Origin: Planctomycetota bacterium
GTDB taxonomy: Bacteria; Planctomycetota; Planctomycetia; Planctomycetales; Planctomycetaceae
Reading direction: 5' to 3'
NCBI GenBank assembly: GCA_018242565.1
Contig: JAFEBR010000484.1
Location: forward strand, 1 to 40,026
DNA length: 40,026 nucleotides
This document shows, one piece after another, positions 29,994 to 30,248 of this stretch. The position numbers and the translations under genes are program-made. The notes under the pieces are model-generated. The model saw nothing but the letters and a program-made list of their open reading frames with translations. It was not told the DNA's origin and made no database searches. The first letter of the stretch is position 1. Each line of letters starts with the position of its first letter.

Positions 29994-30124
29994 CGTGGGA
30001 CAAGTTTTCAACTTGTCAGCGCAGAGCGTACTGCGAGAGTGGCCGGGTTGTCAGCCAACAGATGGGGTCTCTGTGCGGGGCAGGCCGGTGAGACATGCCT
30101 GACAAGTTACAAACTTGTCCCACG
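29994..30124. repeat. 131-bp MITE-like inverted-repeat element
   Basis: Terminal inverted repeats of 26 bp match at 24 positions: the left arm starts CGTGGGACAAGTTT and ends AACTTGTCAG, and the right arm is its complement. Each arm is itself nearly palindromic (ACAAGTT/AACTTGT). The 79-bp interior carries no gene. No target-site duplication is obvious. It has the architecture of a MITE or REPIN-type element; copy number elsewhere in the genome cannot be seen. Confidence 0.7.
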
Positions 30125-30144
30125 GATTTGGGTAACACGCGCAC

Positions 30145-30214
30145 AAAAAAAGAGCCTGCCGCTCAACCGCATTGCTCCGGGCCAGCAAAGACAATACAGG
30201 AACGGCGAGGCTCT
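30145..30214 (-). ncRNA. Candidate ~70-nt intergenic small RNA with terminator
   Basis: On the minus strand, the predicted 5' end (30214, AGAGCCTCGCCG) pairs with the 3' end (CGGCAGGCTCT) in 11 bp with one bulged C, and seven Ts follow immediately (to 30145), as in an intrinsic terminator. An inner hairpin TTGCT/AGCAA caps the loop. A sigma-70-like promoter ends seven bases before 30214. The molecule matches no RNA family I recognise: it lacks the SRP-RNA GGAA loop and is too short for 6S, tmRNA or RNase P. The alternative is a simple terminator. Confidence 0.5.
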
Positions 30215-30220
30215 GACGGA

Positions 30221-30248
30221 ATAATAACACGTTCCGGTCTCACGTCCA
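30221..30248 (-). promoter_or_regulatory. Putative sigma-70 promoter for the small RNA
   Basis: On the minus strand TGGACG (30248-30243, 4 of 6 against TTGACA) and TATTAT (30226-30221, 5 of 6 against TATAAT) are separated by 16 bp. The predicted start falls seven bases downstream, exactly at the first base of the terminal stem. Confidence 0.45.

Follow-up and report, generated by a model that had tools for sequence, protein, structure and literature searches.

A multicopy family of covarying single-hairpin RNA genes with an invariant apical loop in a planctomycete genus

Analysis of a 40,026-nt stretch of planctomycete DNA (contig JAFEBR010000484.1; hereafter the window) identified an RNA gene family that is almost certainly real. 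On comparison of sequences, its members share a hairpin some 64 nt long, with a covarying stem and an invariant apical motif, occupy at least eight unrelated loci and, for most copies, carry sigma-70-like promoters at a fixed distance. We consider it fairly probable that they are independently transcribed, Hfq-independent, trans-acting sibling small RNAs (sRNAs) that work through the apical loop, the trans-acting and loop-mediated mode being suggested by analogy with known systems.

Table 1 Features of the RNA unit in the window
Feature	Position	Strand	Basis
-35-like hexamer TGGACG	30243-30248	minus	read from the sequence; promoter scan
Extended -10, TG t TATTAT (TG 30229-30228; TATTAT 30226-30221)	30221-30229	minus	read from the sequence
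Putative small RNA of about 65-70 nt, single imperfect terminator hairpin	30145-30214	minus	fold; BLASTN match ends; covariance-model match
Invariant apical motif TTGCTGGCCCG, loop CUGGCC closed by G-C and an invariant U-G	30178-30188	minus	identical in all 12 genus copies used for the third model
TTGA at 3'-side bulge; TYGA in 9 of 12 copies	30163-30166	minus	alignments
Seven-T tract, intrinsic terminator	30145-30151	minus	sequence

Direct reading of the minus strand confirmed the elements reported in the initial annotation, namely a TGGACG/TATTAT pair with a 16-bp spacer, paired arms and a run of seven T. The 5' arm (AGAGCCTCGCCG), which begins at 30214, pairs with CGGCAGGCTCT, and the T run (30151-30145) follows. 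The annotated order of promoter and then stem was upheld, with a distance of six bases, instead of seven, between the -10 element and the first paired base. The 71-nt strand of the unit folded into one long hairpin (-36.4 kcal/mol, z = -5.25, with 0 of 200 shuffles equally stable) about 64 nt in length, leaving little single-stranded seed outside the loop. The closed stem described earlier is therefore retained, and its separate inner hairpin gives way to one continuous hairpin with bulges. BLASTN matches to paralogues began at 30214 or 30206 and ended at 30144-30147, and the covariance-model match to the window spanned 30143-30216 (69.8-84.9 bits). The hairpin was absent from the list produced by a simple terminator scan. 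By itself, the window promoter occurred at the chance rate, with two such sites in 8.5 kb versus 2.1 expected, so that evidence from this single sequence would not settle the question of a small RNA. It was the comparative evidence that raised the unit above chance, through copies matching only over the RNA, a covarying stem and promoters at the same distance. Separately, positions 29994-30124 of the window hold a 26-nt inverted pair (CGTGGGACAAGTTTTCAACTTGTCAG / CTGACAAGTTACAAACTTGTCCCACG), whose arms lie 79 nt apart and are each palindromic, in a REPIN- or MITE-like arrangement; pieces of this repeat are found again at L022:3188-3228 and L021:5569-5597.

At least eight copies of the RNA were found in this genome (G000) and 12 in the genus, whose only other genome, G001, holds four clear ones. 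A BLASTN search of the window region against its own genome returned three further copies with 80-93% identity, each confined to the proposed RNA. Four more G000 copies were recovered by covariance models, which covered only the RNA and whose E-values are rough. The first model, derived from the window copy and the three BLASTN copies, retrieved C132, C406, C97 and two G001 copies, and the second added C635, G001 C29 and G001 C206, whose hairpins are visible in the sequence. With the third model, the twelve copies scored 56.9-83.6 bits and everything else at most 34.5 bits across 170 family genomes, 39 relatives searched with laxer filters and 392 phylum genomes; within the phylum-wide search of these 392 genomes, nothing exceeded 31.9 bits outside the own genome. 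A collection-wide pattern scan matched 23 genome stretches and one viral sequence, among which only L196 fitted the model (63.7 bits versus 18.5 or less for the rest), and this is very probably the same copy as G001 C575. No match to the family was found in plasmids. A T-rich tail was seen in family copies. Since G000 is a fragmented draft (9.3 Mb in 1252 contigs, 96.7% complete, 3.5% contamination), the copy number is a minimum and any single copy may lie on a stray contig. For the closest pair, C473/C814, the match extended to 112 bp including the promoter, the flanks being otherwise unalignable, and the duplicated unit thus appears, from the sequence, to be the gene plus its promoter.

Several candidates were set aside during these searches. 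Used alone as a genome probe, the loop motif gave 35 matches in G000, most of them outside hairpins and reading as coding sequence, and most low-scoring model matches in relatives were plain terminators of 35-50 nt. The G114 copies (L047 and L124) have a similar loop, yet they resemble another repeat with its own upstream hairpin and were left out of the family; at L047:1501-1566 and L124:1501-1566, a hairpin tipped by ATGCTGGCC is preceded in each case by another shared hairpin, and the whole may be a dispersed repeat. G001 C333 (TTGCTAGCCCG) is possibly a broken copy. Two G000 loci of the same length class with changed loops, L097:1501-1571 (C1219; TTGCAGCCCC) and L100:1501-1576 (C470; GTCGGCCCA), are possible degenerate or diverged members.

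Compensatory changes, for which the initial annotation had proposed looking, were abundant. Among nine copies, 15 of 23 stem pairs had changed on both sides and 97.1% of cells were paired, values that none of 500 shuffles reached on any measure; a control with slid partners gave 33-50% of cells paired. Extending the alignment to 13 sequences yielded both-side changes in 16 of 23 pairs and 93.1% of cells paired. Both alignments were fitted to the model and are hence biased towards it, while the first MAFFT alignment of four copies, which was not model-fitted, already contained four pairs with both-side changes. The apical motif UUGCUGGCCCG was unchanged in all 12 genus copies while the helix below it is rewritten, and the U-G pair under the loop was invariant in 13 of 13 sequences. 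We discarded self-pairing of the loop, as the predicted dimer merely reflects a self-complementary hairpin.

As only the RNA itself went into the models, promoter scores provide independent support for a transcription unit. To obtain them, we searched the 60 bp preceding each hairpin and rated sigma-70 hexamers whose end fell 3-10 bases short of the first pair, with weights of our own that approximate E. coli frequencies. The summed score of the eight G000 copies was 77.1, compared with 12.2 +/- 7.5 in dinucleotide shuffles. Individual promoters reached p <= 0.022 at 11 of 14 loci and were not significant at C635 (p=0.10), G001 C524 (p=0.41) and G001 C29 (p=0.16). The best-scoring -35 of the other seven G000 copies lay 16-18 bp from the -10, and TGnTAnnnT occurred at the matching place in C1093, C814 and C473.

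A weak model match in G147, from another genus, led to an element conserved across that genus, with BLASTN matches in 16 of 17 genomes, 15 of them to the RNA; the G174 match covers the upstream part only. Eleven of the 14 non-self RNA matches begin exactly at the RNA. The RNA sits between a conserved divergent gene and a conserved same-strand gene, upstream of the latter; judged by eye from their translations, the flanking genes look like those for a zinc-finger-containing membrane protein and a ceramidase-like protein. The loop CUGGCGCGAC is invariant in 15 sequences, and a MAFFT alignment showed five pairs with both-side changes. In all 15 sequences (L199-L213; G147, G131, G118 and others), A(A/G)ACAAA-N17-TC precedes the RNA, ACAAA-N17-TC being invariant, and this motif is reminiscent of an ECF-type promoter and differs from the sigma-70-type promoters seen in the window family. 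In a further genus, g75, two genomes have GUUGGCCCGC loops together with good promoters. The RNAs of both genera are likely, rather than proven, homologues of the window family. For G147's genus, homology is argued from architecture and a short motif in the loop; TGGCSCG turned up in 2 of 31 control hairpins, covariance scores in that genus (16-29 bits) are ones that ordinary terminators also reach (up to about 32 bits), and the loop differs between the genera (CCCG in the window genus versus CGCG). In G147's genus (g56), L218:1501-1586 and L220:1501-1586 contain a second hairpin with a T-tract and the loop region AAGCAGGCCCGAG, near-identical in two genomes, which may be a further RNA gene.

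The genes around the copies bear on how the RNA might act. In the window, the RNA lies 222 bp upstream of, and on the same strand as, a sigma-factor gene (29928-29185), a Sigma70_r2 match just below the Pfam cut-off with a clear kinase adjacent. The copies have neither a neighbour family nor a neighbour orientation in common; the genes next to other copies are TPR, thioredoxin, hypF-like, SDR and DUF1501 genes, in both orientations. This speaks against both a cis leader and a dedicated link to the sigma-factor/kinase genes, so that the regulation of these genes suggested in the initial annotation found no support. Hfq (PF17209), the host factor of Hfq-dependent sRNAs, was not found in G000 and 20 relatives, whereas the control search worked, detecting it in 5 of 14 control genomes. 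G000 and G001 each encode one RRM_1 protein.

We propose that RNA polymerase would make a transcript of about 65-70 nt, whose sole structure, the hairpin, would also be its terminator. The RNA would act in trans without Hfq, its apical loop being available for pairing with complementary sites in mRNA or for recognition by an RNA-binding protein, and the RRM-type protein is a possible helper in this. The sequence complementary to the loop would be CGGGCCAGCAA. Having several copies would provide dosage and let each gene be controlled separately at transcription while serving one shared output. More speculatively, the family may belong to an old class of regulatory RNA in planctomycetes, made up of single-hairpin sRNAs that present a loop. 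One genus would have essentially a single copy, driven by an alternative-sigma promoter, whereas another would have expanded the class to eight copies with housekeeping promoters, and the RNAs would work with an RRM protein in a lineage lacking Hfq; we regard this wider picture as tentative and rather unlikely.

The main rival to trans-acting sibling sRNAs is a protein-binding decoy or structural RNA, in which a protein would recognise the invariant loop and the TYGA bulge and several copies would titrate it, as CsrB-type RNAs do CsrA. Loop and bulge are kept while the helix sequence varies freely, the pattern expected from protein recognition, and the invariant U-G pair below the loop, the near absence of single-stranded seed and the encoded RRM protein fit as well. 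However, one site per molecule would make a poor sponge, and any partner would have to tolerate or follow the change from CCCG to CGCG between genera, and we hold this explanation to be possible but rather unlikely.

Other alternatives fare much worse. The copies are dispersed, one pair is duplicated as a 112-bp block and a different palindromic repeat adjoins the window copy, all of which could suggest a mobile or REP/REPIN-like palindrome resembling an RNA gene by chance. Such elements, like MITEs, would be near-identical and leave the promoter unconstrained; here the copies have diverged over a long time and show compensatory changes, a fixed loop and retained promoters, and in most genomes of G147's genus the likely homologue is flanked by conserved genes, so this origin is largely refuted and very improbable. 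Action as a leader or attenuator for the sigma-factor gene downstream would agree with the gene order in the window and with the same-strand gene downstream of the RNA in G147's genus, but C1093, C814, C132 and C406 face opposite-strand genes, the copies share no neighbour family and the T-tract closes the unit, leaving little room for this role. A chance promoter beside an ordinary intrinsic terminator, the alternative given in the initial annotation and compatible with the chance-level score of the window promoter, was refuted by comparison and deserves next to no credence, given that multiple copies are conserved and covary, keep the loop invariant and have promoters in recurring positions.

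The family matches the initial description of a candidate small RNA outside known families, now with covarying copies and promoters of their own. The search of Rfam release 15 proposed there returned no family at gathering score in the window or in the 11 loci holding relatives, and the best weak match (mir-454, 12.3 bits, E 5.2) is meaningless. In the papers searched on planctomycete sRNAs and structured RNAs, we found no matching family, nor any sRNA family described for planctomycetes. On sequence grounds, this is a previously uncatalogued RNA family of the sibling-sRNA kind, with several related genes per genome (eight in G000, four clear ones in G001), with promoters and terminators of their own, the promoter falling short of significance at three of 14 loci. 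A multicopy covarying RNA with an invariant loop offers a concrete handle on post-transcriptional control in planctomycetes, where Hfq was undetected in 21 related genomes. Mutating the loop, or using it as bait, could reveal its partner, and what appears to be a single copy in a related genus with complete genomes would keep a deletion test simple.

Two known systems provide the nearest comparison. FopS, a paralogous sRNA family of Bacteroides thetaiotaomicron associated with the RRM protein RbpB, comprises many short, scattered genes that have housekeeping-type promoters and intrinsic terminators, each RNA having a single-stranded 5' seed, R1, followed by the terminator hairpin (PMC11697453). 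The window family is likewise made up of scattered, short paralogous genes in a genus with an RRM_1 protein and no Hfq found. However, its RNA lacks the 5' seed, being nearly all hairpin from the first nucleotides, and its invariant part is the loop; sequence relation was judged by the Rfam search alone. LhrC1-5 of Listeria monocytogenes are multicopy sRNAs with two hairpins, whose loops, including the terminator loop, contact target mRNA; their UCCC motifs pair with G-rich sequence lying upstream of the start codon (PMC4132741). Multiple copies are common to both families, and the loop-mediated contact of LhrC is what we propose for the window family, which differs in having one hairpin and CUGGCCC. 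As the closest working precedents, FopS/RbpB and LhrC, alongside the neighbour and Hfq results, favour Hfq-independent, loop-acting trans sRNAs.
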